64,000 nucleotides of DNA from Diphasiastrum complanatum (Eukaryota; Streptophyta; Lycopodiopsida; Lycopodiales; Lycopodiaceae). The DNA lies in contig CM055106.1 of NCBI GenBank assembly GCA_029204225.1, forward strand, positions 33,638,361-33,702,360, given 5' to 3'. Positions 3,655 to 53,296 of this stretch are shown piece after piece. The notes below the pieces were generated by a model. It was not told the DNA's origin, ran no database searches, and was given only the letters and a program-made list of their open reading frames with translations. The translations under genes and the position numbers were made by a program. The stretch's first letter is position 1, and every line of letters begins with the position of its first letter.

Positions 3655-4251
3655 ATTAGGCGGCCAAATGTGCAGGTTTTGCCAGATTTAGAAGAGATTT
3701 GTGGGCGAGTTTGCTTTTGTAGCATTCCAATCAAGTTTCTAGCTAAAAATCTTGTTGATTTATGTGTAGAAATTGGATCTTTGTGATCAAAACATCATTT
3801 GTATGCATTTCAATTGAAGTAGGGCGAATTCCCTCTGTACTTATCAGAATAAGGAGACAAAAATTGTTTTGGAAAGAGGGAGATGCAAGATCCAACAAGA
3901 TCCTATTAGTTTTCCATTCTAGCATATAGTTTTTTGATTCAATTTCTTGCTTCTTCATGTCAAAAACTTCAAAATTGATGTAACCCTCTGATTTTCAGTT
4001 TGCTGAATGATTCAAGAGTGTATTTCAATCTTAGGAGTGAGGGAAAAGCAAGTATATTGAGGTTTGGTCTTGGTTTGATCAAGAAATCATAAAACTAGTG
4101 GCTAAAATTAAGGAAAAAGTGAGGAAAAGAGAGAAAAAGTAAGGTTTTAGGTTCCAAATCTTTGTGATTTCTTCTTGTGTTTCATTTGTTGATTCAAGAG
4201 AGTGCTTAGTGCATTGGAACAGGTCAAAGATCAGAGATCAATCATTGCAAC

Positions 4252-8202: not shown

Positions 8203-8850
8203 AAAATTGTCAACTAGTAGTATTTTCCTAACTTGAGATTTTGTAGGCCTATGGCCAAATAAAAGTTAGAGATAGGTTCATACATGTATGTAGAGGCCCA
8301 AAGTATGTGTACACTACTTTTGAGGTCACATTAATTAGAGGAGGTCGAGTGTGGAGCTCTTCTATTGGCTCATAATTTGGTGCATTCCTATTTGACCAAA
8401 TTTCTAGGTATATGGGTGAATCCTATTGGACCCCAATTTTAGCCTATCATAAGACAAGTGGCCAAGAGGCACTATGGCTGCTATAAATAGCCATCTCCAC
8501 GAGTATGTACACATCTCATTTTCATTCTATTGAATGAATGTTATGCTCTTTGAAGGTCCATCTTCTTCTCTCTCACTTTTTTGTTCATATCTTGCATTCT
8601 AGCCACTAGAATTGTGATTTCTTTGTTGCTATGGCTTCACACGTGTGAAATGCAGGTTGTAGGCTCTGAAGTACGGACAGGGACAGCAAGTTTCTGTTTG
8701 TGGAAGCTTATGATCAGATTTTGATGTTTAGTTGATGTTTAGTATGCTTAACATCACAATTTCTATCATTTTTTCAATCTAGATGTGCATAACTTCCATG
8801 GCCAAGATCTTTATGAAACTTTAGCATCTTTTGGATCTGAGTTTTTCACA
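8198..8850 (+). repeat. Copia-1 3' LTR
   Basis: This 653-bp copy of the 5' LTR shows no differences that I can find. Its first five bases (TGTGA) supply the polyprotein stop codon. It is followed by the right-hand target duplication. Confidence 0.97.
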
Positions 8851-8855
8851 TCACC
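8851..8855. repeat. Target-site duplication of Copia-1, right copy
   Basis: TCACC matches 2985-2989 and marks the insertion point inside the minus-strand pseudogene. Confidence 0.95.
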
Positions 8856-10286
8856 CACTAATGCCAAGTTTGCTTGTGCACTTTCGATTACTTTGGAAGG
8901 GATTTTCATAGTCTTTAACAAATTTGGATGTCGACGTGGCCTCCAACTCCATACTATCACTGATATTGGCTCCCAACGTTGTGGATCATAAGAATTGCCT
9001 CTCCATTGCTTTGTCCAACAATTCTTGTACCTTTCTACAATAGAAATATTACCTCTAGCTATTGGAGCCCAATATTGGATTAATACTTTCATATAGTTTG
9101 GTGAATCTTTGTTTTGATCAACATCAGAAAGTGTATCACCTAACCAAATTGGATAGATGTTCTCATTCGGTCGCACTAGCACAAATTGGTCTTTTTGTAC
9201 ATCAATGTGAGGCTTGAAAGAAACTTTTGGCTTTCCTTTGGCTGGTCCACAGTAGTGTTCGTCATCATCATCTTCTGCTTCCACACCATGTCGATCTTCC
9301 ATATCATCATGCATCCAATAAGTTTTTGGCCAAAAATCATCCATCAATTGTGTGTTGTTGGTGAATTGACATTTTCAAGCATATTTGTAATGTCATCCCA
9401 ATATTTGCTGCCTGTAAACTCCTGCCAAAACGAGTTGATTGTCCCTATCGCCCTCAAATGTTGTTCTACTCCTATGAGGCATAATCTCTGCATTGTTATC
9501 CACATAGTCTTGGATAATTGCTTTGGCCATATCCACGTGTTCCCATGCTCGTCGTATTATTCCTTTGTTTCCATGTGTTGCTTTCCTAGTCCCTTGCTCA
9601 TAGGTGGCTTTGTACCAGTGAAATGAAGCCTTTAATATTCCATGTATTGTGTACCATGCTTTTCCACATATAGTTCCCCCACAAAATAACATGGTTATAC
9701 CTCTTTGTTTTCCTTCCTTGTTATGTGAGGCTTGAAGCATATCGTATACATATGTAACCCTGTCAGATGAGTTTGGTCCCCAATATTGTTGTCGAGCATC
9801 TTCAATCTTTTTTCTCTCCACATGTTGGCAACAATTCTTATCACAACAATCAACAACTAAAACTGCACAAATGCTTTCAAACATCAAGAGATGTGGAATC
9901 TTTGACGGGTTTGAGTTACTCTCATTTTTTGATGTCTTTCTATTGACCATTCTATACTTTCTTTTCCTTGCAACTTGTGTAGATTTTGCAATATCAATTT
10001 GCATAGTTGATAACATATCTTGTTTGTGTAAGTAAAAAATGATGTCATCCTCCTGTTGATGGTCAATAAGCTTACTGCCATCCTCCAGTGTCACTTGTGT
10101 GATTGGCCATTTTAAAAGTTGAATATGAATATTTTTCTCTTCATTAATTTCATGGACCACATTATCAATTTGATATATCAGGTTTCCATAAATTTTGGTG
10201 ATATAAAATTGCCCTTCTCCATTAAGTACCCATCTTCCTTTAATACATGGTTCATATGTAGCCTTTGTTTTCCAATAGTTTGACAT
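8851..10286 (-). pseudogene. Transposase-like gene, internally deleted and cut by Copia-1
   Basis: Two minus-strand frames belong together. The N-terminal part (9393-10286) contains a Cys-rich segment (CCDKNCCQH), then KQRGITMLFCGGTICGKAW and a helical stretch ending EIMPHRSRT. The C-terminal part (8851-9347) has EHYCGPAKGKPKVSF, FVLVRPNENIYPIWLG and YKNCWTKQW. From memory these two ends belong to one family of transposon-related proteins widespread in mosses, lycophytes and ferns, with a DDE-type core between them. Here that core is absent: the frames are only about 45 bp apart, with stops between. I therefore call it an internally deleted copy. Its true last codons lie at 2966-2989. The family name is not certain, but coding constraint in both frames is convincing. 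Confidence 0.65.
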
Positions 10287-10830
10287 AATCTTCTACAAGC
10301 ACACTTTGCCCTAGGGGTTTTTCCATTTATGATATAACATCACCCTTCTCCATTAAGTACCCATTTTCCTTTAATACATGTTTCATATGCAGCCTTTGTT
10401 TTCCAATAGTTCGAATGGCTCGATGGGACAAAATTTGGCATAATGGAACCAACAGGCATGGAGAGGCCCTACTTATCCTTAGTTGAGCCATTGTATTTGA
10501 CAATATGTCTAAATGTCAAAGACACATTACCTATTTTTTCAATGAGTATTGAATTTGTTCTAGCTTTTACACAATCTTCTACAAGCACACTTTTCCCTAA
10601 GGGTTTTTCCATTGTTGATATAACATTAGCCTTCTCTATTAAGTACCCATCTTCCTTTAATACATAGTTTGAATGGCTCGATGGAACAAAATTAGACATA
10701 ATGGAATCAACAGGCGTGGAGAGGCCCTACTTACTCTCAGTTGCGCCATTGTAATTGACAATATGTCCAAATGACAAAGGTGCATTACTTATTTTTTCAA
10801 TGAGTATTGACTTCGTTCTAACTCTCTTAC
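10190..10830 (-). repeat. Imperfect tandem duplication at the 5' part of the transposase-like gene
   Basis: Three related units run head to tail, at about 10211-10340 (short form), 10341-10627 and 10628-10825. Shared words include CCATTAAGTACCCAT, CTTCTACAAGCACAC, GGAGAGGCCCTACTTA and TTTTTTCAATGAGTATTGA. On the minus strand the units repeat peptides such as SILIEKIGN, HIVKYNG and NFVPSSHSNY. Stops interrupt them, so they are duplicated remnants of the upstream coding part and not functional protein repeats. Confidence 0.7.
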
Positions 10831-24300: not shown

Positions 24301-26457
24301 CTTGCCACTACATTTCCCTTAGAATCCTCGAATTCTCAAAATTCTAATTCACACAGGCAAAAAGGAATCCAAATTTCCAGAGGCAGTCTTCTTAAATAAT
24401 TCACAATTTTATTCTCACTTGCAATTAGTTATACTTCAGGATTTGGATGTAAATTAAAATAATTGGATCATTAAGATCATCAATCATCTACATCTCAGAC
24501 TTCCACTCTTTCCCCCCTTCCAAAAATGGTTCAGGTTAACAAAACCCCAAATTTGTACTAGGAAACAGTTCAATATGGTATCAGTAACTTTAACACTAAT
24601 CACCCCGACCATTTTAATTGTTCATCATTAAGTTTCGCACTTAATTTTTGGTAAATCCCCTTATGGATCAGCATAGAAACTGTTCCAACTAGATTTACAT
24701 TACTCTTGATCCTTATTGATCCTTAAAAACAAGAAATGCTTTTTAATTGACAGATTCACAAAATCTTCAACTAAAAGTGAAGGGTACAGTGATCTTAACA
24801 ATCGACTGATTTCAACTCCGTAAGATCATTCACTTTATAAGTCATTTTTGTTTGATCAATAATCAATGAATTTGAACAAATTGAAAACGTCCATGGTTTC
24901 TTCAAGTTTTACATAAACTAGGATTTTCAATTTCCATTCAATATGGACCTAAACTGTGAAATTTGATCAAACACCGAATTGACAGTTTCACAATTACGAT
25001 TACATATTGGAAGGAATCTGAAACATCCAACATGCATCCAATATGACATGCAGTGATTTCAATTTAAAATTCAATTTTTACGTAAATAGCCAAGAAACTG
25101 GAAAATTAGCCTAGGGATTTTCAAAATCAGTTTGAAATGGACCAATTGTGAAAATCGATTTATCAATCTCACAGACACTGTCACTTATCGAAACTCGACA
25201 TGCACTGATTTTTTTTCCAAAAAAACGAAAAAGAATCACGTAACTAGCCTAGCCACTAGGAAATCTGCTTTTTGATCTAGAATTGCCGAAAATAGCTTCA
25301 TACATTTCCATCAACAGACAAGCACTACATTGAGTTACAAGCATGCATGCATCAGAACATTTCGAAAATTTTGCAAATTTTAGTTCAAAAATTGCCAAAC
25401 TTCCAACAGCCATAACTTTCTCTACATGACACCAAATTGGTCACTGTAAAGCACAATACGGAGGGAGAGTGGGACTACAAGGCACTTGCCACATCACCCT
25501 GCCACCTAGGCTTCACACGTGCGAGCAATAAATGCACAAAAAATAGGTAGGAGGGCGCACTTTTGGAGAGAGAAATCATCAAAAACTCAACTCTAGCCCA
25601 ATAAGCCTTGGGTTAGAGGTTACAAGCACTCTACTAAGGTTCATTAGAGAGGCATAGAAGCTTCTAAAAGGTCCAGCAAGCAATCATAGGCTCAGTCATG
25701 CAAAAAATGCCTTTTTGGGTTCCTTCAACAAGCAAAACTTCAAGATGGTGGTGTCTAATGCTCACCTATCCAAATTGGCATGATGTTTCAAAACAGACAC
25801 AGTCCATCATATATTTAAGTTTGTAACAAGAATCAATAGGTTCAGACCCTCAATTGAGAGGTATTCGTGCTCAAAAATCATCAAAAATACACTAATTTTT
25901 GGTGTTTTGAGCCCCCTAATGGTGTCTAATCCCTAACAAACTTAATGACAGCTCCGGGTCTCTGAAAACGTTCATACCAAGTCTTGGCTGAGAATTTTGA
26001 GATCTACCCCAAAATTAGTCCAAAAAACATCAAAAAACCTTGTTTTTTGACCAACTTTGACCAATTTTGACCAAAATTTGTGGGGGAAATTTACAAATAA
26101 GTGCAATCAGATCCAAAGCCCTATAAATCCATTGCATGCAAGCACTAAAAGTTCTGATTCTAGTCAAACATGGTTTCTATAGCCCATTTATGGTCCAAAA
26201 AACCCCAATTTTTGGTCCAAAATCACTATCTAATTAATCTTTTGACCATTCAAACATCATGCAATCATTAGATCCAATCATTAATGACTGTAAAACAACA
26301 AGTACAATCTGGAAAACGTACTACATCAGTACCTTTGATCAATTTCAAGCAAAAAACTTCAATTCTAGGTGAAAAATTCACTAAAATCTTCAAAAATCCT
26401 TCGATTTCCACCAAAAATTATGGAGAAAATCCATATTTATGATATGGGGAATGCTTT
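21331..26457. other. No gene recognised
   Basis: Short ORFs occur (for example 22486-22938), but they lack recognisable motifs and have unconvincing composition. The region 25100-26450 is rich in AAAATC and TTTTTGG words and resembles retroelement leader or LTR sequence, without definable ends. Confidence 0.5.
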
Positions 26458-26880
26458 TTGGCGAGCTCTTCAGGGCGAGGTTTTTCGTCCTTGAAGCGAG
26501 CTTTTCTAGCACCCATTCAAGACATCAAAAAATGGTATAGCATAAGGAGCATAAGAAGACAACCATTAGTTGTAATAGGGAACTCTAGACCCAAGAGACC
26601 TACCTACTATGATACATATGGTTTCCACTACATAACCAAGGAGGGGCTTACTAACAGTAAGAAGCTCCATGTTCATATGCATAGCATATTGAGCAAATAG
26701 GCCTCACCTATTCAGGAAGCCTACCTACTTGTAAATGCTCCACTAGTGTCACTACTCCCAGCATGGAAAAATCCTGGAGGCCCAAGAAGAATACTTCTAC
26801 CTAAGTCATTAACTTTGGTTCCCAAGAGAGACAAGAAGTTGAATGAGACACATCTTCATAGCGATGACCTCATTTTATAA
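26458..26880 (+). other. Unassigned reading frame with one internal stop
   Basis: A frame starting near 26458 with a basic N-terminal part (SSLKRAFLAPIQDIKKWYSI) continues past a stop at 26698-26700 in the same frame (ASPIQEAYLLVNAPLVSLL) to about 26880. I recognise no domain. It could be a decayed gene fragment or chance. Confidence 0.2.
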
Positions 26881-27595
26881 AGGTGCAGGAGATATGTCGG
26901 GATTTGCGCCAAGCCAAATACAAATTGATTGGACTACTCCTCTGCTAACGACCTACCCTATAAAGATTACTAGGTGTATCAAGCAAAGAGCTATAATAGC
27001 ATTTCTGATACAAGTCATCAAACAAAAATTCATATTAGACAACTAGGTATTATAAATATCTATTCAGAATAGCAACTCCAGAGTATAAATGTACAAAAAT
27101 ACTTACTGTTAGAAAAATTGACTCACACAACTTACATTCTCTTATACCATGTACATATTCTAATGTATAGATGCTACTCAGCATGCACTAATCAAGACTT
27201 GGATTAAATGTAAGCAGACTGAAGGTAAGTTTACAAGAAGGTGAATCACATGCAGATAAAGGTAAAATTGAACCTAGTTAAGGACATCTTCTTCAATGTT
27301 ACTTAACAACTTGGGATAGTAGTGGATCAATATGAAAGGTGGTGGAGAAAACAAATCTTTCTCAGTAAGACAATAAGACAAACTCTTGAGCATGATGATT
27401 TTCAATACAAGACCATAATTAATTTAATAGTGTACATTTTACCATCAATTAGTGACTAATAACATCAAAACCACAAACTGGGCTGAAAGAGATATCCATG
27501 CAATACTGTTTTAAGTTTGTTCATAAACTAAACAAAAGCAATTGGTGGCTGGAAAGTCTCGAATTAGTCCATGATGATTTTTTTTAAATGTATCA

Positions 27596-30500
27596 CTAAC
27601 TACTCTCCATAGGCAACAAAAAAGTGTCAAACAAAAACTGGTCCTGCTCAATACATATGCAATCTCTATTTAAAGATCCAGCTTGACGTCCCATATTTCC
27701 AGTTCCAGAAAATAGATCCATAATGATGTCACCCGGATTGGTTAACATCTCCACCAAAAACCTGCAAATGCGGAAAGTGTAGCAGAGTTATCAAATAAAC
27801 GGACATAAAAAATGCACCCAATTTGCACCCAATTTATTTCTTGGATGTACCTGCAAAAACCTGGAGACCTCTCAACACCGCCACGACAAACAACGCCATT
27901 TACTTCAGTAACTGTGCTCCCATTAAGGTCAATTACCCAATTTGCCTTTTTGTCAAAAGCAACCTTCGAATCTCGACTAGCAATAGATCTCTTGTAGGTA
28001 GGTTCATGAAACCCTACTCGATGGTACAATGCAACTTGAAGAGAAAAACATCCGATGGTTATTATGCTAGAAAAACAATGTGCCTATTCAAACTTGTGTT
28101 GTGACAAAAGAGTGATTACCTCCTCACATGGATCATGCCTAGTGTAGGCCGCTTCGACCAACACGTTCAAGCAACAATATAGCACAAATCCAAATGACTC
28201 GGCGAATGAGTGTACAATCGGAAAGTGCTTAGGGATGCATGTATAAACAAACCATCCTTCGTCTACAACATACTTTGTTGCAATTTCAAATACTGCCGCG
28301 ACCAGATTAGGAGAAAACTCATTCCAAGCTGGAACACCCGCGTCACTCTCAAAGTGTTTGACTGGTAGAGATGTCGAAAAATCTACCTAGACTAGCGCCA
28401 CTGCAGATTTAGCTAGGATTTCATTTATGGTCAAGCCTGTCATGAGGTTGCGAGTGCAAAATTCTCGCACCTTTTTGGCAGCACTACTTTTTTTCTTGCG
28501 TGCAATCTTGCATATGTCACACAAGACAGCACAAACCTTGCCTTGCAAACCATCTGATGCGTCTGACAAGACAAGCTGGAATTAAATGAGAATCATAAAC
28601 AACAAAATTAAATGTGATGCTTAATGGTGATAATTCCAAAAAACTAAAGCTAGTCAGTCGAGAAATAACCTGGGCTTGTAGCCACATAATCTGCAATGGT
28701 TACATCCACTGGTGTGTCATCGGATGAGACCATGTGAGAGTCATGCAAATCCTCTTCAACCTCCATATCTAAAAATCTCTTAGATCGTTGCTCAGGTCTT
28801 CGCTGTCTAGCTAATACGTTTCTCTTGGAGGCTGATCCTTGTTTGGGGTGGGTGTTTTGTCTTTTGCCTTGTATCATTGCTTGCCCCCTTGCATGCAAAT
28901 CTCTCTCAGAAGGGGGAACTTGGTCTGCTGGGTAATCCAACCACCAAGGATACCACTTACGCTCCCAAGAAGTGATATCCATGTCGTTCCACTCAAGTGG
29001 AAACATGCTCTAGGGTCCATTGATCACTAGCCAGTCAGTTACCTCAATTGGATAGTTTGTTATGGTCTTCTCTTTGAGCAGTGAAGTCAACCATCTGCAA
29101 CAATTTGATTATTTTAGACGAGATATAAAGCTTCAAAATGTGAAAGTCACGGTAGTACCATGACAACTATTTAGACAAATAAAAATAGACAACTATTTAT
29201 GTAGTACCATACCTGTAGACAAGCCTTCGAGCACACAAAACTAGCTCTGGTTGCTTGTCCTCACCAGCTGCATTCTTCATTTCTTTTTGCAAATTAGGAA
29301 AGGCAAGTTGAAAGTGTAATTGGCGTTGTCTCTTGAAGAAGATCTTGTGTCCATCTGGAAGTGAAGAGCCATCATCTGCCATGGCTAGTTGTGTAAGAAT
29401 GCCCTTGGCCATTGCAATCATTTGCCACCAAAAAGTTTCCTTCACCATGTACCGTCTAAAGCTTTTGTTATCGGAGCTCATACCTGTAGCTTCTCTTTGT
29501 TGCTTGTCTCCTCCAAGCAACGCAATGACTTCTTTCTTCTTGTGACAATATGTCAATTTGTGTCATTTGAAAGATGCTTTTATCACACTTGGTGTGTAAC
29601 AGATGCTATGATTGCGTGTTTAGAGCATGAATGGTTACGAGTTACAAACTTACTTCGTTGCGCTAACACAAGATGTTGTGATAGTCTGGAGTTTGTCTTT
29701 AGTCACCACTATTCCCTTCACACTCCAATCCATGTTATACAACATATAAAAAAATCCGGTTCCATTCGTAGGGTTGGCAATGATAGCCAGCTTATACGCC
29801 TTGTTATTTATAGATTTTTTGATAGCCTACAAGCAAAAACTGTTAGTGTTTACCAATTACAGATTTTACCACTGGAATATTGAAAAAGATTGTCACAAAC
29901 CTGTACAGCGATGTCATGGCGTTCCTTACGTTCTTCTTCTGTCAAATGCTGCCCATCTATCAAATAGTCATGCTCATGTACCAATCTATCAAATTCATCC
30001 TGTGCAAAGACAACAATGTTAGTTCCAATGAATCAGTATCCCACCTCAAATAGCTTGATCTTAAACCAATACAAAACAAACCTTGAATACAGTTGTGCAA
30101 GGATAGCCATTGGCACATTGTACCAGGGTTTGTGGGATCCTTTTCTCTCTTTCTTTATCTCAACTTCCATCCAATTCCTGTCTTCGGCCGGCAGGTGCTT
30201 TAGTAGGGTCTGTTTGTCAGCTTGTCCAAACTTTTGCATCATATATATGTCATGTGACAATGTGTGTGGCACAAAGACCCTCGTCAATCTGCAAACACCA
30301 CAAGTTAGGTTTACAAACCTCATTAAAATAAACTACTAATCCACACTATTTAGCACAATGATTTACCTATTGATATTGTGGAGGGCCAATAAAAGCTCTC
30401 CTTGTCCCTTGGAAACATCCAGAAATGAACAATCCACTCGAACATGCTTATCCTTGACGTTTGAAAAAACTGCACCAGCAATGCAAAAAAGAAGGTGAAT

Positions 30501-31125
30501 CATATGACAACAAACAAAAGCATTAGGAAAATTCATTTGACAGTTTTAGACAAAGCACAAGGAGGGAGGCAAATGATCACTAACCCTCTCTTATTTTCTC
30601 CATCCAGGCACAGACTCTGTGGTTTCCATCCCACACAATGAATTTTTTATTCAATAAGTGACTCCATTCATCACTTCTGAGTACTTCCTTTTCAAATCCA
30701 GCATTGATTGACTGCCATATAGGTCCCCACTCCTGCAAATCCAAGTCATTGACCTCGAATTCCGGTTCATTTGCCTTCTTGATTGACACCAAAAATGTGC
30801 CTAACTCTTTCAGGTAGCCATTCATCCTAAATTTATATCCTAAATCCGAAATATTCTTTTGTACTAACCGTATTGATTCGTTGACCACCAAACGACAAAG
30901 TGGTACTGGAGGGGGTGGAGTACTTTTGCAAACACACAGTGAGGCAATTACATCCTGGAGAATGTCTGTCTGAATGACTTTTCCATAATGTCTTATCCCA
31001 TGTTGCGATCGGGTGGGCTCAATGTTGCTTGTATCATTGTCTTCTACGATGTGCGAGGGATCTTCTAAGACATGCAAGGGGTCTACCTCGTCGCCCATAG
31101 CATCAACATCATCAATTTCTTCCAA
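27596..31125 (-). pseudogene. Intron-containing gene with ParB-like motif and DNA amino-methyltransferase-like C-terminus
   Basis: About ten exons can be traced on the minus strand: 31125-30585, 30469-30367, 30288-30082, 29999-29901, 29826-29654, about 29535-29213, 29094-28670, 28575-28120, 28034-27851 and 27761-27596. Most junctions have GT/AG sites and introns of about 75-115 bp. Exon 1 ends with FIVWDGNHRVCAWM, resembling the GxHR core of ParB/sulfiredoxin-like domains. The last three exons look like a beta-class amino-methyltransferase. They contain a motif IV position (VCAVLCDICK, where DPPY/W is expected), GWFVYTCIPKHF, and finally motif I in DIIMDLFSGTGNMGRQA with DCICIEQDQ. TAG stops lie in frame at 29010-29012 and 28387-28389. 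Junctions 3/4, 5/6 and 8/9 do not keep frame with the sites I chose. It is probably a decayed copy. Function beyond domain resemblance is inference. Confidence 0.7.
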
Positions 31126-31382
31126 AGTATTTCTGGGGAGAAGCTATCACTTGTGATAACTTTTTGTGCAATAGGCTTCCATCTGAGATATTAGTGGAAA
31201 GACATCTCATTGTATTTGGTGTCGCCAAGTGTGAAAGAACTTAGAATCTTTGGTTCTCCTTATTCAAGGTATTTTCATATTGGACAACTGAAGGCATTGA
31301 ATTTGAGGATCCCTGGCTCATCATCTTTTGGAATACTTAAAGAGTTCCCCAACTCCCATGAGCTTGGAAACTCTAGGTTCAC
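31126..31382. promoter_or_regulatory. Short divergent intergenic region
   Basis: This gap separates the starts of the minus-strand methyltransferase-like gene and the plus-strand transposase, so both promoters may lie here. A near-palindrome TATCACTTGTGATA occurs at about 31145-31158. No clear TATA box was found. Confidence 0.35.
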
Positions 31383-33860
31383 GTGCACACATCCATGAGA
31401 GCTTTGTCTTATTCTAGTTGGAGGCCCAATCCTATGAAATGCATCAGAGCACTTTCATTCTTAAGTGAATCAATGCAAATTTTATGGCTACATGGCGATT
31501 TCACTAATGTTCAAGCTACCCCTAAAACAAGTTCCAATCTACGGTGTATATGTGACACATTACGTCGGATGGTTTCCAAGGCGAAGAACACAGTCATGCC
31601 TTTAGGAGATGGTCTGGACAGTCTTCTACACCTAAAGAACAATTCAATGTATGACTTCTTTCATGGTAGCAGATTCCCAGGACAAGGTTCTTTAGAAGAC
31701 CGTTGCTTTGTTTTCAAAATGTCAACGAAGGGACCTGCTTCAGGAGTGGATCTAGTAAATCGAATGCGACGAACAAGCAATGGAGATCTCAAGTATGCTT
31801 GGGTTCAACTTGATCACACCAGAAGAGTAATTGGATGGTCAACAATGGCATGCCACGTCTACGACCCAAGGTATCTCTTTTATGTTCCAACAGAGTTGGA
31901 CAAAACTTTTTCCAATTTGAAGAAAAACTTACGAACATGCTCTTGATTGTTTAGGTTCAGTGTACAAGAGCTGTGCGAGATGAAGGAAGAGGATACTGAG
32001 GCACAAATTCTATTCTGGGAGATGCTCAACACAGTCATAAAGTGTTTCGGTCATGACTATGCCTACTTTCATGGATTCATGGCAGATGAGGCCCAAGCGA
32101 ACTAGAGGGCAGTCCGAACAGTGTATAACTATAATGTCATGAGTGGTCGTGAAAGGTCATGTCTATTTCATTAGGAACAAAGCCTTGTGAGACACACCGA
32201 TGCATATGTTCCAAAGGATCAATAGGCTCAACACAAGTTATTATGTGAAAAATGGAGGACTTCCGCAACCAGAGATGAAGCAGGAACACTACAGGTTGAT
32301 TAGGCAGTGGTGGCAGATAGCAAAAGTGAAGGAGTGTGATGTCCCAACATTGGATAGGTGGTTGAGCTGATGGAATGTCAGAATTGCTCATTGGGGCGAT
32401 TTCATGACAACAGTAAGTTGTTTATGTAAAGCAAGACCACAAATTGTAATTTATTCTCACCACAAATTCAAATTGATAACCATAAACCATTTTTTATGTT
32501 AAATTCTAAAATATTTGTGTTTCATTTGATAGGTGTTGGATAGTAACGCCGCTGCAAATACTCCACGAACCAATTTATCAGAATCCAAGCATGGTACCTG
32601 GCTTGCTGGAGAGGGGCCAAAAGATAAAATTTCCTTGTACGATGCAGCTGTCTCTGATATGGCAAATGCTCTTTTGCAAAGTGCAAAACAACATGCATAT
32701 ATTATGGGAAAACATTTGGGAGCTGGACCAAGCTTGAAGAATTTAATTGATAGAAGCTCATCAAAGCATCCATTCAAGCCTACCAGTTCAACAGCTTGTC
32801 ACTGGCACTCCAATGTATCACAACATAGTCAATTTAGAGGGTGAGAGAGAGACCGTGCGACAGAAGAGGAGGCCTTCCTTGGTTGTGGATGTAGAGAATG
32901 ATAGTAGTCACAGACCTAAATTTGTTCATATTACCAAGGAACGCAAGGAGCGAGGCCGCCCCAAAAAAATTATATTTCAAGCAGAGGGAAGTGTACCTGG
33001 GCAAGGTATAGAGGCACCATCGACTTCAAGGGTTCCCCCACAGGAAGGTGACTCTGTGTTCCAAGATAAGCAAGAGGTGGTGGAACGTAAACTACACGAC
33101 ACGTTTTGGGCAATAAGGAGAACTAACATTGGTAGTCATGTGAAGTGTCTCGGATGGATATCCAAAAGTGGAAAATGTAATCGTGCAATAACCAATTAAT
33201 CGAAAAGTACTCCGCGCTATGTTTTTTCTCAGCACGAAGCCATCCAAATGGGAAGTCCCAACAAATGATGTGGTTTGTAATACTGATTGCACCCAATCTT
33301 GGAACCCAGACAAGAGCATTAATCCAACACCTGCAAAACTACCAAGCATATGGCCTGTCGCTGAAGGAACAAAGTTGGTGCAATCAGAGGTGGACATGTT
33401 GACTACTGTAGGATTTCAATTGGAAGTGAAGTCTGTTAGTGTGAATAGTGCTGCTGGTGTTCCCGGCCCCAAACAAGCGGCTGGTCCTAGTAGAGTAAAA
33501 AATTCCAAAACCCACAAATACAAACGACCAAGGCATAGGACAAAAGTATCAAGAATAGCACAAGCACATATAGAGAAAGCCATGATCATGAGTGCTTCTG
33601 TGTTGACAGAGAAGGTAGTTAAAGAGTCACAACACGGAATTTTTGAAATTGAGACTGAATCTTCTCTGCAAGCAGGACTTCATTATGATGTCCATATAAA
33701 TATCAATCCCTCATGTACCTGTCCAGACTTCCAAAAAAGGCTGGCTGAGGCTTGGTGCCAGAGTCTTCAGAGGATGAGGAGGCCATGTTAGCAGTGATAA
33801 TTAAAGGACGAAAAAAGTAGGAAAAATGGTGAAAAAGTTAAAAAGGTGTGGAAACGACAA
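31383..33860 (+). pseudogene. MULE-like transposase with SWIM zinc-finger remnant
   Basis: Successive plus-strand pieces follow MULE-type transposase order. They include LKYAWVQLDHTRRVIGWSTM, then ELCEMKEEDTEAQILFWEML, FHGFMADEAQAN and GRERSCLFH (DDE-core region), and RQWWQIAKVKECDVPTLDRW up to a GTAAGT donor near 32410. An exon from 32533 carries KDKISLYDAAVSDMANALLQ and a basic stretch RKERGRPKK. The C-terminal frame (33219-33791) contains YDVHININPSCTCPDFQKR, the first half of a SWIM (CxC...CxH) finger, whose second half is missing. In-frame stops lie at 32103, 32172 and 32223, and a frameshift precedes 32300. The upstream start is uncertain. It is divergent from the methyltransferase-like gene. 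Confidence 0.75.
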
Positions 33861-33979
33861 AAACTGTGAAATACAAGCGATGGATGACAAGTAGTGTAGT
33901 TCAAAGCGCAGATTGGTGTTCAGTATGAGCAGATGATAGCTGGTAGGAATTTTGGTCACAAAAGGAGAACTTGGTAATT

Positions 33980-34062
33980 GAATAACAGCATACACATTTG
34001 CATTCAAGATCATACATCATAAAAGTGACGTGTGCAATGGCTACAAGATCATCAATGACACT
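33980..34062 (-). repeat. Inverted repeat copy A (partner at 39253-39330)
   Basis: The reverse complement contains CACTTTTATGATGTATGATC and CTTGAATGCAAATGTG, which also occur in the plus strand at 39253-39330. The two copies are inverted about 5.2 kb apart and differ at a handful of positions. Copy A is joined directly to a truncated Copia gag. Confidence 0.8.
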
Positions 34063-34850
34063 TTTCACAAAATGTAATGATTGCAAATTTGCAAGTTATG
34101 CATTCAAATCCACCTCTCATTGGCTCATGAGATCCAATCATGCTAAGACGCATTGATCATGAGGCCAATCATATTAAGAGGTGTAAATTAACTCTTCATT
34201 GATCAGGATCTCTTAAAGATCCATCATACTTGTCAAAGTCTTTCAAAAAGCAATACTTTGAACAATGTTAGCATGAGCATCCAACAAGCCATTAAGAATC
34301 ACTTAAATAAGCTCTCCTTCCTTAATGCTTTCATCAATGCAAGCCCACTCATCATTCAATGCTTTCATCCTCAAAACAAAAGTACTTGGACTTTCTTCAT
34401 TCTTTTGCAAACAAGAAAAAATTTGCCTTCTTAGAGTCAACACTCTAGAAGTAGACTTGGATTCATAAAGCTTCTTCAATGAATCCCAAGCTTCCAAAGA
34501 TGATGTGCACTTACCAACTTCCTTGAGAAGCTCATTGCTAACATTCATCTTTATCATGTGTAGAGCCTTCTTGGCCCTCTTGTCATACCTCACTTGATCT
34601 TGTTGTGTTGCTGGTCTCTCCTCCAAACCTACAACAATATCCAAAACATCATTCATCTCAAGAAGTGACTCCATCCTCACTTTCCACAATGAATAGTTAC
34701 TTGAGGTAAGCCTATCATTGGCTTCCAACATCACTCCAATTAAGACTGCCATGTAGCAATGACCTAATCTTCTTTTTCAACCTGTTTCAATGCATAAAGC
34801 ACTCCTTTGAACAACAACAAATGCTTTCAAAGGAAATCACCAAGGTTTGA
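34063..34850 (-). pseudogene. Truncated Copia gag, copy of the Copia-1 lineage
   Basis: The minus-strand frame (ATG at 34752, ending near 34303) encodes a gag N-terminus very like Copia-1: MLEANDRLTSSNYSLWKVRM, ERPATQQDQVRYDKRAKK and TLRRQIFSC. After about 149 residues it loses frame and passes into non-coding sequence shared with the plus-strand copy at 43130-43890, including the same internal deletion. Zinc knuckle, protease and pol are absent. The two copies form an inverted pair about 8.4 kb apart. Confidence 0.88.
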
Positions 34851-38003: not shown

Positions 38004-39252
38004 TGTTGTACTATACCAACAGGGTTAATATAGATTTTATAGTAAATAATGTCATTCCCACAGAGGACAGCGTTAGAAACTTATGTTTTTGGTACAATTA
38101 TGGCAAGTGGTTTTGAGTGTTATTATGGTTGTCGACAGACATTAAAAAGTAACCAGTATTACTTATATTTGGGATGGGTAGTGTTAATAAATTCAGAACA
38201 ACAATCTGGCCTCTATCGAATTGGATGAAGCGCGTTCTACAAATGAAATGTTATCAGAGTAGTACAACAGTACTACACTCTGGCTGATTAAGGTGTCAAT
38301 CCGAGTAACGTATCAGTTTGGTACAGTTTTTCATAGTCACTGATAGAGAAGTATGTGTGCATGTGAAATGCTAGTCCCTGTTGAGTTATTGGCCTGTATT
38401 TGTGTTTGTAATGAAGATATATGTTTCTAACATATTCGCGAACTATTTGAGTTCTTTAACCATGACTGGACTTTAGTTGTTGAGGACTTCTGTCCAGAAC
38501 ACATTAGTTCAAGAATATGAATAACTATTTGTCTGTTCGTACACGTATGCATCAAACATAACACAAATCCTTGCTGACAACTTAATCAGCTAGAGTGTAG
38601 TTCATTTGTGCTACTCTGATCACATTTTGAAGAAACAAAACGTTTCCGTTTACAAAGCTTTGCTAGCTTTCAGCCCTCTGCCTGATGAAAATGTTCATGA
38701 ACACGAAAGATTCATGAACATCCTGACGAGAAGACACAAACACGAAAGATTCATGAACGAAAATCTTTCACAATCCAGCAAGAGAGAGTCAAACGACGTG
38801 ACACGAAAATCGTCGCGAAACCTTTTCTGCCCTCACGCTCCAAAAGTACTAGCAAAATTATTCAAGTATCTAGAAGTACAGATATTTGATCCGATGACAT
38901 GATGTCAGCAGATACACTCTAGGTCATGGCTAATTTGCCACTCTTGTAATTTTTTCTGATTAGTTGTAGATACTTAATTAATCTAATCTAAAAGTTACAT
39001 AGAGCGACTATATACTGACTGGATGATACTTGAAACACACAGATAGAGAAAAAGTAGTCTGATGCTAGCAAGCAATCAAGACGAAAATACAGAACAGAGG
39101 TCCGCCTGCGTGTGAGACAATTCTCTGTAAACAAGATCCACAAGTCTGCTAGTAAGCGAGACACTACTCATGGGAGAATCGTATTTCTCTCACTCCAACG
39201 CACTGCATGGATCTTCATGAAGTGCTTGAAGAATCCATAAAAAAATCAATAG
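38004..39252 (-). repeat. Probable 5' LTR region of the minus-strand Gypsy element, ends unclear
   Basis: In minus orientation the LTR would end CAACA at 38004, twelve bases before the primer site. The block has no credible gene. It contains a direct repeat of ACACGAAAGATTCATGAAC near 38701 and 38738. A 60-bp piece (38297-38357) recurs inverted at 61050-61110. The far end of the LTR was not found. Confidence 0.45.
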
Positions 39253-39330
39253 ATGATCTTGTAGCTGTTGCACACATGTCACTTTTATGATGTATGATCT
39301 TGAATGCAAATGTGTCTGCTATTATTCATG
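39253..39330 (+). repeat. Inverted repeat copy B (partner at 33980-34062)
   Basis: GATGATCTTGTAGC followed by CACTTTTATGATGTATGATC matches the reverse complement of 33980-34062 closely. Confidence 0.8.
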
Positions 39331-43129: not shown

Positions 43130-43890
43130 TTCAACTCTTGGTGATTTCCTTTGAAAGCATTTGTTGTTGTTCAAAGGAGTGCTTTGTGCATTGAAACAGG
43201 TTGAAAAAGAAGATTAGGTCATTGCTACATGGAAACCTCAATTGGAGTCATGTTGGAAGCCAATGATAGGCTTACCTCAAGTAACTATTCATTGTGGAAA
43301 GTGAGGATGGAGTCACTTCTTGAGATGAATGATGTTTTGGATATTGTTGTAGGTTTGGAGGAGAGACCATCAACACAACAAGATCAAGTGAGGTATGACA
43401 AGAGGGCCAAGAAGTCTCTACACATGATAAAGATGAATGTTACCAATGAGCTTCTCAAGAAAGTTGGTAAGTGCACATCATCTTTGGAAGCTTGGGATTC
43501 ATTGAAGAAGCTTTATGAATCCAAGTCTACTTCTAGAGTGTTGACTCTAAGAACGCAAATTTTTTCTTGTTAGCAAAAGAATGAAGAAAGTTTAAGTACT
43601 TTTGTTTTGAGGATGAAATCATTGAATGATGAGTGGGCTTGCATTGATGAAGGCATTAAGGAAGGAGAGCTTATTTAAGTGATTCTTAATGGCTTGTTGG
43701 ATGCTCATGCTAAAATTGTTCAAAGTATTGCTTTTTGAAAGACTTTGCCAAGTATGATGGATCTTTAAGAGATCTTGATCAATGAAGAATTAATTTACAC
43801 CTCTTAATATGATGAGCAATGAGCAATGAGATGTGGATTTGGATGCATAACTTGCAAATTTTCAATCATTACATTTTGTGAAAAGTGCCA
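43130..43890 (+). pseudogene. Truncated Copia gag, plus-strand copy
   Basis: From the ATG at 43229 the frame (MLEANDRLTSSNYSLWKVRM and so on) runs about 114 residues to a TAG in the position of the residue after SC. Further in-frame stops follow in recognisable gag sequence (FVLRMKSLNDEWACI, VILNGLLDAHAKIVQS). After 43790 it leaves gag and shares sequence with the minus-strand copy at 34063-34850, for example GCATAACTTGCAAATTT. Both copies therefore derive from one already deleted element. Confidence 0.88.
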
Positions 43891-43894
43891 TCAT

Positions 43895-47318: not shown

Positions 47319-47540
47319 ATGACTCTACAAAGTGATTCAGATGAAGATACCAAGTTAACCCAGGAGCTGTTCGATGGAACATTACTCCCGGTTAAGCTAG
47401 AAGAATTTGGCAACTTAGCAGTTGGCCGCTGTCCCAAATCGAAAGAAGACTTGCTCTTGATCGAAGCCCAACATAACTTGGAGCTTGTTCAGAAGTTATA
47501 TAAAGAACTGAATCATGTGAAAATTGTCAACATTTCCTAG
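47319..47540 (+). other. Small acidic open frame interrupted by Copia-2
   Basis: An ATG at 47319 opens a frame beginning MTLQSDSDEDTKLTQELFDG and continuing with a helical acidic stretch. Copia-2 inserted within the codon for His after 'LN'. In the empty site the frame would have ended two codons later at 53956-53958. Family unknown; it might be a retroelement leader peptide, a gene fragment or chance. Confidence 0.3.
47511..47515. repeat. Target-site duplication of Copia-2, left copy
   Basis: AATCA precedes the 5' LTR and is repeated at 53947-53951. Confidence 0.95.
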
Positions 47541-48170
47541 CTAGTTTGAGGCCTAAATTGGCTAAAATTGTAAATAGTTTTGGTTCTGGAGTTTCACACG
47601 TGTGAACCAGGCCACAATGTTTTTATTTACTGTATTTTTTCAGTATGATGAAGTGTCAAACTTCATACCCTTCAAAATGAGACCATTTTGATGTATTTTG
47701 GTCATATAAGCCATTTTTAGCTATTTTTCCTATATAGGGAATATCTAGGGTCAAGTACCTTCTAGAGAGAGGAGAGAGAGTCATCTTCCTCATCCATAAA
47801 TAGTAGGGAAGTCGTGGAAAACAGGTTGGAGAAACCTTTTGTATGCTTCATTGAGATCAATAGATCATTGTCATTGTTTCTTCCTCCATTGAGAGCATTG
47901 TTGTGTGTATTGTCTTCAAGCTATTGTGTATGATCTTAGGTGCTTTCCAAAAGTGATAGGCTGATGTATTATGGACTGTATAATGCTATTTTGGGCCGCA
48001 CTTGATGTTTATGGAAGTTTCCATGTGTGATAAATGCTTTTTGATCAAGTTCTTTGCATTCTAGGTAGCATAGAATGTGTTGCCAATTCCTAGCTTATGT
48101 AGTTTGGAGTGCAAGCATTCAAGCCAATGATCTTGGAGTTTAGATCCACTTAGGATCTGTATTTTTCACA
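47516..48170 (+). repeat. Copia-2 5' LTR
   Basis: It begins TGTGAAAATTGTCAAC and ends GTATTTTTCACA. It contains the G-box palindrome TTCACACGTGTGAA at 47593-47606 and TATA-like words near 47729-47738 and 47793-47801. It resembles the Copia-1 LTR only at its ends and in the palindrome. Confidence 0.97.
47593..47606. promoter_or_regulatory. G-box palindrome in Copia-2 LTR
   Basis: This is the same perfect 14-bp palindrome as in Copia-1, here about 78 bp from the LTR start. The 3' LTR copy is at 53369-53382. Confidence 0.65.
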
Positions 48171-48182
48171 TGGTATCAGAGC
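48171..48182 (+). other. Copia-2 primer binding site
   Basis: TGGTATCAGAGC follows the 5' LTR with no gap, as in Copia-1. Confidence 0.93.
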
Positions 48183-49342
48183 TGGTTGGCTTCTATTTAC
48201 AGTAAGTATTCCATTTTTGGTGATATTTGGATGTTTGATCAAGTTCTAGCATGATTTTGCATTGCTTTGTTGATCAAATCTTACTAACCTTTGTTTTGTG
48301 AGTTGAACTTGTGGATCAAAAGCATATTTCAGGTCTATTGAAGATCAGAGGCTGAAAAGAAACTATTTTGGATCAGATCATAACACCTAATCATTTGTGA
48401 TTGTGAGGCTTGTGCATATTCAATACTAACAATGTTCTTTTCAATCCTATTGTTGACAATCTCCATTCTTGGATGAACACTCTCCTTAAGTGGATGAAAC
48501 TTCTCCTTAAGTGGATGACAAATGCTCTTTTGAGTGAGTTGTAATTCTCCTAAAGGCTGAGCAAAGCTCCCATTTGGATGAAAGATCCCCTTTTTTGGGT
48601 GAACATATTGTAAGCTCCATTGTGAAGAGCATATTGTAAAGATTGTCATCAATTTTGGCATAAATTTTGGTGTACTTTGTTGAGCATGTAAGTAACTCTC
48701 CTTATGTAATTTGATTGGAGCATTTGCTGGAAGGTGTTAACCATTATGCAAGTGTGTTTTCAGGTTCTTAACAGGTTGAGGAACATTCTCATGTGAAGTG
48801 ATCTTAGATCTACATCTAAACACCAAGATTTGACAAGATAGTGAAGCTAGTCTTGTGATTCACTAAGTGTGCTCATTCATTCACCTCTAAATCTTGTATT
48901 TATCACTTGCTGGAGTTTATAAACTTTTAGAAGTGTGGTTTACATGTGGTTTTACAGGTTGAATCAATATGTTAGTGTGTTGATCATATGTTGATCAAGT
49001 TTGTTCATTACTAGGTAATCTTGGCATCCTAGTTTTGGGTATTTTCTAAGAATGCAAGTAACTCTTCACACCATAACTTGATTTGGTCACTTGCTGGAAA
49101 GTTTGAGAGCTTAAGCAAGAGTGTGTTCAGGTTGGTTTGATTTTGTAATCCATTCTTAGTGTGTGCAAAGTGTTGCATGTGTTTCAATCTTCCTTTCTAT
49201 GCTTGGAAACCATCTAGGTTCAAGATAGAAGTGTTTTAGGGTCCTAAATCTTCATAGATCTCTTTATCTATCATTTGTTGAGAGAAAAGTGAGTGCTAAG
49301 TGCTTTAGGACAAAACCTAAAAGTTGAAGAAACATTAGAATC
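48183..49342 (+). other. Copia-2 untranslated leader
   Basis: This 1.16-kb stretch lies between primer site and gag, with no supported gene. It contains short repeated words such as TCCTTAAGTGGATGA near 48482-48520 and several segments with 'TTGCTGGA' about 180 bp apart. It is roughly twice the length of the Copia-1 leader. Confidence 0.7.
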
Positions 49343-52300
49343 ATGGCTTCCAATGGTGGGATCATGCTAGAGTCTAGTGAAAGGTTGAGTTCATCAAACT
49401 ACTCTACTTGGAAAGTGAGGATGGAGTCCTTACTTGAGTTGAATGAACTCATGGACATAGTTGCAGAAATTGAAGAGAGACCTCTCACACTTCAAGAGCA
49501 ACAAAGGTTTGATAAGAAGGCCAAAAGGGCTCTTCATATCATTAAAATGAATGTTACAAATGAACTTCTCAAGGAAGTTGGAAAGTGTCAAAGTGCAAGT
49601 GAGGCATGGAATGCCTTAAAGAAGCTCTTTGAATAAAAGTCCACATCTAGGGTATTGACCCTAAGGAGACAAATATTTTCTAGTAGGCAAAGAGAGGGTG
49701 AAAGTGCTCATGCATTTATCTTGAGAGTTAAGTCCCTAAGTGATGATTTAGCATGCATTGATGAGAACATAAAAGATGGTGAAATAGTCCAAGTTATGTT
49801 GAATGGTTTGCTAAATGAACATGCTAACCTTGTGCAAAGTTTTGCCATTCAAAGAGTCTTGCCAAGTGTGGTTGACTTGCAAGAAATCTTATTGGCTGAA
49901 GAACATAGGTTGCAATCAAAGCTTGATGGTGCATCCTTGCAAGGTGGAGGTGAAGAGGCTTTCTTCACAAAAGGCAAATTCAAGGGCAAAGGTAAAGGCA
50001 AAGGGAAATGGTCCAAAGGTGGTAACTTTGATCATGATGATCACTCTTCCTCTTCCTCTTCTACTAAGAACAATAAGTCAAAGTTCAAGTGCTTTTATTG
50101 TGGGATAAAAGGTCATTTTGCAAATGAATGTTATAAGAAGAAAAGAGAGCAAGGAGAGAGGCAAGGAAATCTTACAATAGATGAGGAAGAACATAACACA
50201 TGTGAATCACTTGTTATGACTTCAAGTTTGTTAGCCAACATAGATGATAATGATCCTTGGTGGATTGATAGTGGAGCCTCATCTCACATGACAAGACATA
50301 AGGAATACTTTACATCCTTATTGTCTTATGAGGGAGAAGGTAACATCATCTACACTGCAAATGATGGTCAATGTGACATCAAAGGCATAGGCACTATTCC
50401 TATTTCCCTTTCAACAAATAGGAAAGCAAATCTTGAAAATGTTTTGTACATTCCTTCAATCACTAAGAATTTGCTTAGTGTAAGTCAAATGATTGACAAA
50501 GGACTTGATGTGGAGTTCATTGGAGATGCATGTTTGATAAGTAAATGTGGATCCTTGATTGCTCAAGGTAGGAGGCATGGTAAACTTTTCAAGCTTGATG
50601 CATGTGTGATCTCTAATCATGAAGGATGTATGGCTAGGGAGCAATTGACAAACCAAGAAGTTTGGCACAAGAGGTTGGGCCATCCCAACTTCAAATCTTT
50701 GGAGGTAATGGCAAAGAAAGAGCTTGTTCTTGGTCTCCCTAAAAGTCTTGTTGCAAACAATAGTGTTTGTGAACATTGTGCCTTGTCCAAATCTCATAGA
50801 CTTGCTTATTCTAGATCTACTTCTAGATCTAAAGAAGCTTTTCAACTTGTGCATTCTGATATTCATTCTTCTAGTACAACTAGCAATGGTGGGGCAAAGA
50901 TGTATGCAACTTTCATTGATGACTTTAGTAGGTATACTTGGATCTATCTTCTTAAAAGTAAGGATGAAGTGTTTGCTGCATTTGTCAAGTTCAAGAATGA
51001 AATGGAAAACCAATTCAATACAAAGATCAAATGCTTAAGATCTGATAATGGAGGGGAATACACCTCAAATAGGTTCAAAGACTTTTGTATAGCACATGGG
51101 ATTAAGAGGGAGATGTCTAGTCCTAGGACTCCACAACAGAATGGAGTGGCCGAGAGGAAGAATAGAACCCTTTGTGAATGTGCCAAGGCAATGAGACTAC
51201 ATGCTAATCTTGCTAAGTCTTTTTGGGGGGAAGCTTTAGCATGTGCTAACTATCTATGTAATAGATGGACAAGTGCTTCCTTGGATGGTAAAACTCCTCA
51301 TGAGGTTCTTTATGGTAGAAGGCCGAGTGTCAAGCATTGTAGGATCTTTGGATGTACATGTTTTGTCAATATCACACTTGATGATAGAACTAAAGAATAT
51401 CCTTCATCAAAGAAGGGTGTGTTTGTTGGCTATAGTGAAGTAAGCAAGGCTTACAAAGTGTACATTCCTTCTACAAAGAAAGTTGTCATAAGTAGGGATG
51501 TCATCTTTCATGAAGAGAATGTTTCCAATGTTGTTGATGTTGATGTTGATGTGCCTACTAATCATCATGATGTGCAAGATGTCTTGGATGAAGATGGAGA
51601 TGCCACTCCAAAGCAAACTTCAAGGAAGACTCAAAGGCAAAGGGCTAAGCCATCAAGGCTAACCTATGATGAAAAAGGAAAGCAAGTGGTGGACAACTCT
51701 AACTTTGCTTTTCTTACCTCTTTTGATGAACCAACTTGTGTAGGTGAAGCAATTCAAAAGAAGGAATGGATCCAAGCCATGGATCATGAGCATCAAGCAC
51801 TCATCAAAAGCAACACATGGAGGTTGGTAAAGCTTCCAAAGGACAAGAAGGCAATTGGTTGTAAGTGGATCTTCAAGATCAAGACAAATCAAGATGGATC
51901 AATCAACAAGTACAAGGCAAGGTTGGTGGCAAAGGGGTATGCTCAAGAATATGGTATTGACTATGATGAGACCTTTGCACCCGTGGCAAAGATGGTAACT
52001 ATTCGAATCCTAATCTCTCTTGCAATTCTTTATGATTGGGATATGTGGCAAATGGATGTTACTAATGCCTTCTTGAATGGTGATCTTGAAGAAGATATTT
52101 ACATGGAGCAACCCGAGGGCTATGTTTCACATGATGAGCCTAATCATGTGTGCTATCTCCAAAAGAGTTTGTATGGGCTAAAGCAAGCACCAAGGAGTTG
52201 GTATGCTAAGCTCAATTCCTTCTTACTTTCTCAAAACTTTGTTATGAGTGAGTATGATCATTCTCTCTACTTTAGATTGAATGAAAATGATATCACTTTA

Positions 52301-53296
52301 CTTTTGATCTATGTTGATGACATTATCTTAAGTGGTGGTAACAATCTAGATATAGATGAAATCAAGATGGCACTCAAAAGAGAGTTTGAAATTCAAGATC
52401 TTGGTAAACTTCATTATATCTTAGGAATAGAGATTATTAGAACTTCTAAATCTACATTCATATGTCAAGAAAAGTATGTTAACTCTATTCTAAAAAGGTT
52501 TCATATGGAAGATTGTAAAGTTGTTTCTACTCCTATGGAATCAAATGTAAAGCTAACTACAAGAAGTAATGAAAGATCCTTCAAGGACATTACTCTCTAT
52601 AGAAAGCTAATAGGATCTCTTATATGGTTAACCATCACAAGACCTGATCTAAGCTTTGTGGTTGGTAAACTAAGTCAATTTATGCAAGATCCTAGTGAGG
52701 CTCATTGGAAGCTAGGAAAGAGAGTACTTAGATACATCTCGGGATCTAGAGATTTTGGCATCTTGTATGGAGGTACTACACCTAACCTTTGTGGATTTTC
52801 AGATTCAGATTTTGCAGGTGATCAAATGGATAGGAAGTCAACAAGTGCCTTTGCAATCTATCTTGGAGATGGAGTGGTCTCATGGCTATCAAAGAAGCAA
52901 CCAACTATCTCTCTATCTTCCACCGAAGCCGAGTACAAGGCATTAACAACATGCACCAAGGAGATTCTTTGGATCAAGAGGATGTTATTGGATCTTCACT
53001 TGCTGGAACCAGAGAAGACTCCAATCATACTTTGTGATAACCTTTCAGCCCAAAGCTTGGCAAGCAATCCTGTTTTTCATGCAAGGAGCAAGCACATTGA
53101 GATTGCTCACCATTTTGTGAGAGATCAAGTCATTGCCAAAGAGGTGGAGCTTCAACATGTCTCTTCAAAGGAGTGTGTGGCTGATATCTTCACCAAACCA
53201 TTGGGAAAGGACCTATATTTAATGCATAGATCTAATCTTGGAATGTGCTCAAAGACTATGTTGAAACTAGCATCCAATGTTGAAGAGGGAGTGTGA
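49343..53296 (+). pseudogene. Copia-2 Gag-Pol polyprotein with a single in-frame stop
   Basis: The frame has 1317 codons before its terminal stop and is open except for TAA at codon 98 (49634-49636), inside gag. Copia-1 has a serine codon at the equivalent place. Beyond it all domains are present: a CCHC knuckle (CFYCGIKGHFANEC), protease DSGA with D at residue 309, GAG-pre-integrase, an integrase with FVNITLDDRTKEYPSSKKG downstream, reverse transcriptase YVDD ending at about 993, and RNase H. An ATG at 49655 could restart translation after the stop but would lack the gag N-terminus. The final TGA lies in the first bases of the 3' LTR. A single change probably disabled an otherwise coding-competent copy, unless readthrough occurs. 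Confidence 0.93.
53282..53291 (+). other. Copia-2 polypurine tract
   Basis: GAAGAGGGAG is identical to that of Copia-1 and adjoins the 3' LTR. Confidence 0.9.

Follow-up and report, generated by a model that had tools for sequence, protein, structure and literature searches.

A probable two-gene Mutator-like transposon of Diphasiastrum complanatum with a divergent ParB-like/amino-methyltransferase-type accessory gene

Two broken genes that face away from each other in the genome of the vascular plant Diphasiastrum complanatum, one resembling a transposase and the other a DNA amino-methyltransferase (MTase), raise the question of whether they belonged to one mobile element, and what such a protein would have done for it. 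The genes lie in a stretch of 64,000 nucleotides (C15:33638361-33702360, here called the window) of a 1.74-Gb assembly whose chromosome-sized contigs bear numbers up to at least C23. The locus is probably a dead two-gene Mutator-like element (MULE), in which the gene divergent from the transposase encodes an accessory protein of ParB-like/beta-class amino-MTase type. Transposons are silenced by DNA methylation, and an element with a selected amino-MTase-like protein would provide a direct test of a foreign mark against silencing in plants. The locus comprises the following features, in which SAM stands for S-adenosylmethionine:

26437-26445: nine base pairs outside the left end, TTATGATAT, presumably half of a target duplication of which the other half is lost
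26446-33749: remnant of the two-gene MULE, right end lost; the left terminus is common to other copies, and on the right the homology to copies on C15, C23 and C3 ends at about 33749
26446-26518, minus strand: MTase-side terminus beginning GGGGAATGCTTTTTGGCGAGC, with subterminal repeats, about 79% alike in subfamily B
27596-31098, minus strand: ParB-like/amino-MTase-like pseudogene of ten exons, with homologues of its exons, though not always of all ten, in 20 loci of the genome
Its exons, minus strand: A 31098-30585, B 30469-30367, C 30288-30082, D 29985-29901, E 29826-29654, F 29538-29213, G 29094-28670, H 28562-28128, I 28034-27851, J 27761-27599; stop codon 27598-27596
27599-27761, minus strand: exon J, which contains the SAM-binding motif I (DLFSGTGN, 27695-27718) after the last part of the motif X region (PF01555)
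28372-28383, minus strand: motif IV position, DFST in the window copy, D-F-P-T and variants in relatives
30616-30627, minus strand: GNHR box of the putative ParB-like domain in exon A, intact in 8 of 13 copies that cover it; the domain would continue into exons B and C
31110-31220 (about), plus strand: degenerate piece of a copia integrase in the gap between the genes, with amino acid identities of 60% and 46% to the copia integrase at 6109-6183 and 51200-51316
31440-33749, plus strand: MULE-like transposase pseudogene lacking about 250 N-terminal residues, in pieces with stops and frame changes; genome match C15:33669800
33684-33737, plus strand: SWIM finger of which the first half is present (CTC), matching PF04434 with 13.9 bits, below the cut-off of 19.6

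Both genes named in the initial annotation were recovered where it had placed them, as were its GNHR and DLFSGTGN motifs. The element extends further to the left than the gene pair, to 26446, as seen from comparison of the left terminus with other copies, and on the right it is truncated where the homology to other copies ends. The MTase-like gene has nine short GT-AG introns, eight of which are phase-compatible, whereas exons E and F join out of phase. Its spliced reading of 872 codons contains two in-frame stops. At the stop in front of motif IV, the ten relatives listed have tryptophan, and not glutamine as had been supposed. The window copy of the transposon is dead.

The first approximately 250 residues of the transposase, which are present in the copy L039, are without a counterpart in the window, and the copia fragment lies near their place. 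In L039, positions 6242-7102 form an open frame of 287 amino acids that contains the transposase N-terminus with a Cys/His-rich part; the frame has no Pfam match. The D and CxxH pattern of the transposase was judged by eye against the DDE and C2H signatures of MULEs. The MULE label rests on these motifs together with the ends and the 9-bp duplication of a related copy.

The C-terminal end of the window MTase matches PF01555 (N6_N4_Mtase) with scores of 34 and 35.8 bits (E=1.1e-8 for the latter), above the curated cut-off of 26.7 bits. The relatives L036 (38.8 bits) and L055 of subfamily B (38.5 bits) also exceed the cut-off; the matches are confined to the last 45-55 residues or so. Among PDB sequences, DpnA-type adenine MTases (E=2.4e-4) come nearest, followed by M.PvuII (E=0.005), and a comparison with phage families returned DNA methyltransferases (E=9.7e-8). 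The C-terminal approximately 250 residues were aligned with 15 phage MTases, of which five were found by tblastn with the window domain and ten are M.PhiCh1-I or proteins that align with it over their own length. With hhalign, the single window sequence matched the phage MTases with E=1.4e-10, over 52 columns around motif I by default and end to end with laxer settings only, and the plant family profile matched them with E=6.8e-11 over 186 columns by default, motif IV included. The profile alignment sets DFST of the window copy on the DPPY of the phage proteins (DPPY in 14 references, SPPY in one), so that the motif-IV-like position of the initial annotation is real. Judged from its sequence, the C-terminal domain is a beta-class DNA amino-MTase in which motif IV precedes motifs X and I, and in which motif IV is unusual. 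The HPTQKP box is absent from the window MTase, where other residues take its place. Approximately 300 residues separate the domain from the putative ParB-like N-terminus. The DNA-modification module that had been proposed for the element is thus upheld as to its class by the sequence profile, but not as to its catalytic residues, since motif IV is never DPPY and HPTQKP is replaced.

The genome of D. complanatum contains at least 192 exon matches to the MTase domain at E<=0.001, and 20 MTase loci of 9.9 kb were fetched. One of them, L042, is the locus of the window as present on contig C1674 (99.95% identity over 9901 bases) and hence not independent. The copies fall into at least three groups of about 50% identity, sorted by identity in exon H and not by a tree: group A is 64-86% identical, group B (L049-L053 and L055) 44-51%, and group C (L054) 48%. 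Selection was assessed from synonymous and non-synonymous counts (proportions pS and pN, rates dS and dN) over codons in tblastn-aligned exon parts of 14 pairs; unaligned exon parts were excluded, which lowers pN somewhat. Between groups A and B, pS is 0.78-0.79 (dS is saturated) and pN 0.26-0.28; between A and C, pS is 0.76-0.79 and pN 0.29-0.30; between B and C, dS is 1.9-2.1 and dN 0.37-0.39, with an omega of 0.19. Within groups omega is 0.27-0.80, a range in line with decaying copies. Purifying selection acted on the accessory protein during the divergence of the groups, and the gene therefore probably helps the element. Many single MTase exons are open among the genome matches listed.

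The changed motifs are common to the divergent copies. Motif IV is covered in 19 of 20 rows of the alignment, 7 of which read exactly D-F-P-T and the other 12 differ by one or two residues: DFST and YFPT (three each), DFLT (two), and NFPT, HFPT, DLPT and NFST (one each), HFPT being the form of the group C copy. The explanation of the window DFST as decay alone was rejected in part, because D-F-P-T is the commonest form in the relatives. RGGAERSP is the usual form in relatives, divergent copies included, in place of HPTQKP, and motif I usually reads DLF(S/A)GTGN. The replacement of DPPY by D-F-P-T or its variants, and of HPTQKP by RGGAERSP, suggests that the methylation activity may have been altered or lost.

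The pairing of the two genes recurs in the genome. Among the 20 fetched loci, L036 (with a single piece of 41 residues), L039, L042, L046 and L051 have divergently oriented transposase pieces upstream of their MTase. L054 is also paired, as seen with the transposase N-terminus as query; in this copy exon A lies inverted, and no end of the element was seen. The remaining 14 loci contain no transposase within the fetched stretch. The fullest pair is L039 on C23, with MTase exons A-J, the transposase pieces M0-M5 from the N-terminus to the SWIM finger, and the MTase-side end; a transposase-side end was not detected in it. For a genome-wide count, at least 86 separate MTase places (extra exons of one copy dropped) were compared with at least 150 transposase places. 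Among the matches listed, a transposase lies within 20 kb of 14 of the 86 MTase places, and 10 of these pairs are divergent. In 1000 random shifts with strands drawn at random, the mean number of pairs was 1.03 (maximum 7), and that of divergent pairs 0.18 (maximum 2). The places are partly non-independent: the one on C1674 is the window locus, a pair on C4 and a pair on C7 look duplicate, and small contigs look like second chromosome copies. Even so, the association of MTase and transposase is far above chance and is found in groups that are about half identical in protein. Homologues of the two genes thus stay neighbours in this genome, mostly in the divergent arrangement. In three places (C7:30576027/30583397, C7:6433767/6426449 and C3:74131423/74137419), MTase copies of about 42% identity have a transposase upstream on the same strand; they are perhaps a fourth group. 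Searches of viral contigs with four queries returned no relatives.

The MTase-side end of the element, present in 9 of the 20 loci (L042 counted), lies approximately 0.9-1.2 kb past the MTase stop in group A and approximately 1.75 kb past it in L049 and L051 of group B. It reads inward GGGGAATGCTTTTTGGCGAGC or GGGGAAAGCCTTTTGGCGAGC, followed by further GGCGAGCTTTTT-like units. The transposase-side end is known from a copy on C15 and reads GGTGTGAATTTCTGGCGAGCTTTTTGG, with the outside flank CTTCTCAAG. The same nine bases, CTTCTCAAG, flank this copy exactly on both sides of a 10,222-bp unit (C15:31188030-31198251), the terminal inverted repeats of which are short and imperfect (GGTGTGAATTTCTGGCGAGCTTTTT / GGGGAATGCTTTTTGGCGAGCTTTT). 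Nine-base target duplications are a mark of Mutator elements. On one strand, the unit carries pieces M1-M5 of the transposase together with the final 61 residues of the N-terminal query; the other strand carries MTase exons H, I and J. Since these parts lie between duplicated flanks, the outer parts of both genes belong to one inserted unit. MTase exons A-G have no match in the unit, which is thus without the ParB-like part. The approximately 5 kb at C15:31191192-31196160, where exons A-G and the transposase N-terminus belong, match none of the queries and appear to be an insertion or replacement. The pair in the window belongs to one kind of transposon, Mutator-like by the 9-bp duplication and ends of this relative. 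The initial annotation had expected inverted ends and a target duplication around both genes; the C15 unit provides them, but around a copy that lacks exons A-G. Its broader proposal, a single mobile element that once carried both genes, agrees with the mostly divergent neighbours and with the parts of both genes in this unit.

Other copies add details of the ends. L043 and L047 (at 25.7 Mb) have the same flank as the C15 copy at 31.19 Mb, which indicates that the element locus was duplicated after insertion. At least 11 MTase places of 78-82% identity form a cluster at 30.3-31.9 Mb of C15. A copy on C17 (approximately 12547346-12558681; its middle was not fetched) has both kinds of end, and its flanks match at 7 of 9 positions by eye, with two transitions; a scripted search allowing one mismatch found no duplication there. 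The copy on C3 has lost its transposase-side end. Among the 25 longest of 64 inverted repeats within the window, none frames the gene pair, because the right end of the element is lost. The inverted pair 33979-34056/39249-39328 was considered as element ends and rejected as part of another repeat.

The N-terminal part of the accessory protein is probably ParB-like. Its best-scoring match to a profile of ten PhiCh1-like proteins falls at GNHR and the strand that follows. The label is kept as probable despite the weak score because the identical domain order is known in phages and has been described for algal transposons. Repeated stretches on the minus strand at 9396-10292 and 10342-10824 of the window resemble the N-terminus of exon A (34% identity over 56 amino acids) and adjoin a 299-amino-acid open frame of another element.

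In the proposed mechanism, one gene of the transposon would encode the transposase, and the divergent gene an accessory protein in which a middle part joins a ParB-like N-terminus to a C-terminal SAM-binding domain. The ParB-like part would hold or clamp the DNA of the element, with the GGCGAGCTTTTT units repeated near both ends as a possible site. The SAM-binding part would modify this DNA to N4-methylcytosine (4mC) or N6-methyladenine (6mA), or otherwise mark it. The mark or the binding might let the element escape silencing or be recognised by its transposase. With DPPY changed to DFPT in motif IV, the chemical step is perhaps altered, or it may have been lost with binding alone left; retention and loss of methyl transfer stand at near-equal odds on the sequences compared. 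A more specific reading is that of a MULE lineage with its own sequence-targeted amino-MTase and a new D-F-P-T motif, in which a ParB-like clamp at the terminal repeats writes 4mC or 6mA and so keeps the silencing by 5-methylcytosine of the host off. This reading is rather doubtful; if it were true, such elements would be a possible source of amino-MTases in plants.

Several observations weigh against the two-gene transposon with a ParB-like/amino-MTase-type protein. The exon A region has no match in Pfam, NCBIfam or the PDB, nor in the phage-family comparison. The ParB/sulfiredoxin-type motif claimed earlier does coincide with the best profile match, but the match is weak: its score was reached by 0 of 60 and 2 of 300 shuffled sequences and by 1 of 200 column-shuffled family alignments. 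AlphaFold predictions of exon A reached mean confidences (pLDDT) of 42 for the exon by itself and 39 when seven relatives were included, and lent no support to a fold. Of the MULE/SWIM transposase of the initial annotation, half of the SWIM finger was seen, below the cut-off, but no Pfam MULE domain was detected in the transposase sequences scanned. Stops, one to eight per sequence, interrupt the aligned MTase exons in 21 of 21 sequences examined, and a catalytic (D/N/S)PP(Y/F/W) motif, DPPY included, occurs in 0 of the 19 copies covering it. The exact target duplication is found in one copy only, which belongs to a duplicated cluster and lacks exons A-G together with the greater part of the transposase N-terminus, and none of the copies examined has both whole genes and both ends. 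Among the matches listed, 72 of the 86 MTase places are without a transposase within 20 kb, and of the 14 pairs three are head-to-tail and one is convergent.

The alternatives differ in how much of the transposon they leave standing. The accessory protein may be a catalytically dead relative of MTases that binds SAM and DNA and has a structural or anti-silencing role, similar in effect to VANC, an anti-silencing protein of Arabidopsis MULEs. This explanation is compatible with the transposon part and falls only a little short of an even chance. It would account for the replacement of both DPPY and HPTQKP in groups that are about 50% identical while the SAM-binding motif I is kept, but the aspartate of motif IV is kept in most copies beside an aromatic phenylalanine, and the preserved motif I can also be read as a sign of activity. 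Amino-MTases tolerate some variation at motif IV. A passive capture of a host gene, which would make the MTase-like gene Pack-MULE cargo of no use to the element, is very improbable; no search aimed at a host orthologue at a fixed locus with the same introns was made. MULEs do carry fragments of host genes, according to the available text of PMC6446971, and the copies examined are decayed. Nevertheless, the gene and the side on which it lies are the same in three divergent groups, between which pN is far below pS, and the last MTase exons lie with the transposase inside one target site duplication (TSD). Pack-MULEs are defined by host fragments without a transposase gene, whereas here the transposase and exons H-J share one TSD-bounded copy. 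A chance adjacency of two unrelated transposon genes in a repeat-rich region might be suggested by the nested elements that fill the window and by the copia fragment between the genes. It can hardly be reconciled with the excess of divergent pairs over the random shifts or with the TSD-bounded copy that contains parts of both genes, and is the least credible of the explanations.

The arrangement has a precedent outside land plants. The available text of PMC12477816 describes a ParB-like/amino-MTase gene opposite the transposase of the Ectocarpus element Sola1-1_Ec32 and cites similar proteins for transposons of green and red algae; a ParB-MTase gene opposite a transposase is thus already in print. 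Like Sola1-1_Ec32, the element of D. complanatum is a large DNA transposon with a putative ParB-like part and an N4/N6 amino-MTase in one protein, encoded on the strand opposite the transposase. The likeness is drawn from the description, and the MTase and the arrangement match, whereas the ParB part is probable only. The algal element belongs to the Sola1 superfamily, measures 21.5 kb, encodes a protein of 1104 amino acids and comes from a brown alga; the present one is Mutator-like, approximately 10-11 kb long, encodes about 870 amino acids and comes from a vascular plant. The occurrence of a like gene in both suggests that a module of this kind entered unrelated superfamilies, and an amino-MTase-type module is perhaps useful to transposons in general. 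Among the entries listed by the literature searches, which covered few subscription papers, the Ectocarpus paper was the only relevant one, and no report of a ParB-MTase module in a MULE or in a land plant was found. What is new is the ParB-MTase-type gene in a MULE of a vascular plant, with an altered catalytic motif common to divergent copies. This motif poses the biochemical question of an altered enzyme or a reused binding domain.

Fusions of ParB to an N6_N4 MTase are mentioned for phages in the available text of PMC12704722. As in M.PhiCh1-I, an N-terminal part with a GxxR box is followed by the PF01555 MTase domain; M.PhiCh1-I itself scores 23.7 bits for ParB_N, just under the cut-off of 26.3, and is the sole match among six phage proteins scanned. 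The phage ParB-MTases have 408-480 amino acids, DPPY or SPPY and mostly HPTxKP, whereas the accessory protein here is about twice as long, with the middle part as an insert, DFPT, RGGAERSP and introns in its gene. Among MULEs, the VANDAL and Hiun elements of Arabidopsis carry accessory anti-silencing genes (PMC6446971, available text), and VANC counters silencing in a sequence-specific manner, according to the portions available of PMC6446971, PMC10398659 and PMC5735166. Compared by description, these elements (with VANB and VANC) resemble the present one in having accessory genes and no or short degenerate terminal inverted repeats. The available descriptions of VANB and VANC mention no MTase-like domain, unlike that of the accessory protein here. 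Enzymes of epigenetic marks are also carried by other mobile elements: TET/JBP genes by fungal DNA transposons, SET genes by oomycete MuDR elements and DNA methyltransferase (DNMT) genes by retrotransposons (available text of PMC12730594 and PMC5890265). Their chemistry and enzyme families differ from those considered here. The earlier remark that amino-MTases are unusual in plants needs a caveat, as a 4mC enzyme of Marchantia is mentioned in the available text of PMC8885841.

The surroundings of the MULE remnant contain other elements. A repeat derived from copia gag starts 230 bp past the broken right end and occurs at 33979-34850, 39249-39328 and 43131-43891 of the window, in inverted copies (91% and 92% identity). 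The regions 2990-8851 and 47516-53946 are two copia elements with pairs of long terminal repeats that are 100% and 99.7% identical. Their coding parts are nearly without CG and CAG/CTG, with observed-to-expected ratios of 0.10 and 0.13 in one and 0.06 and 0.18 in the other, against 0.41 and 0.77 in the whole window. This depletion may reflect the avoidance of methylation targets.

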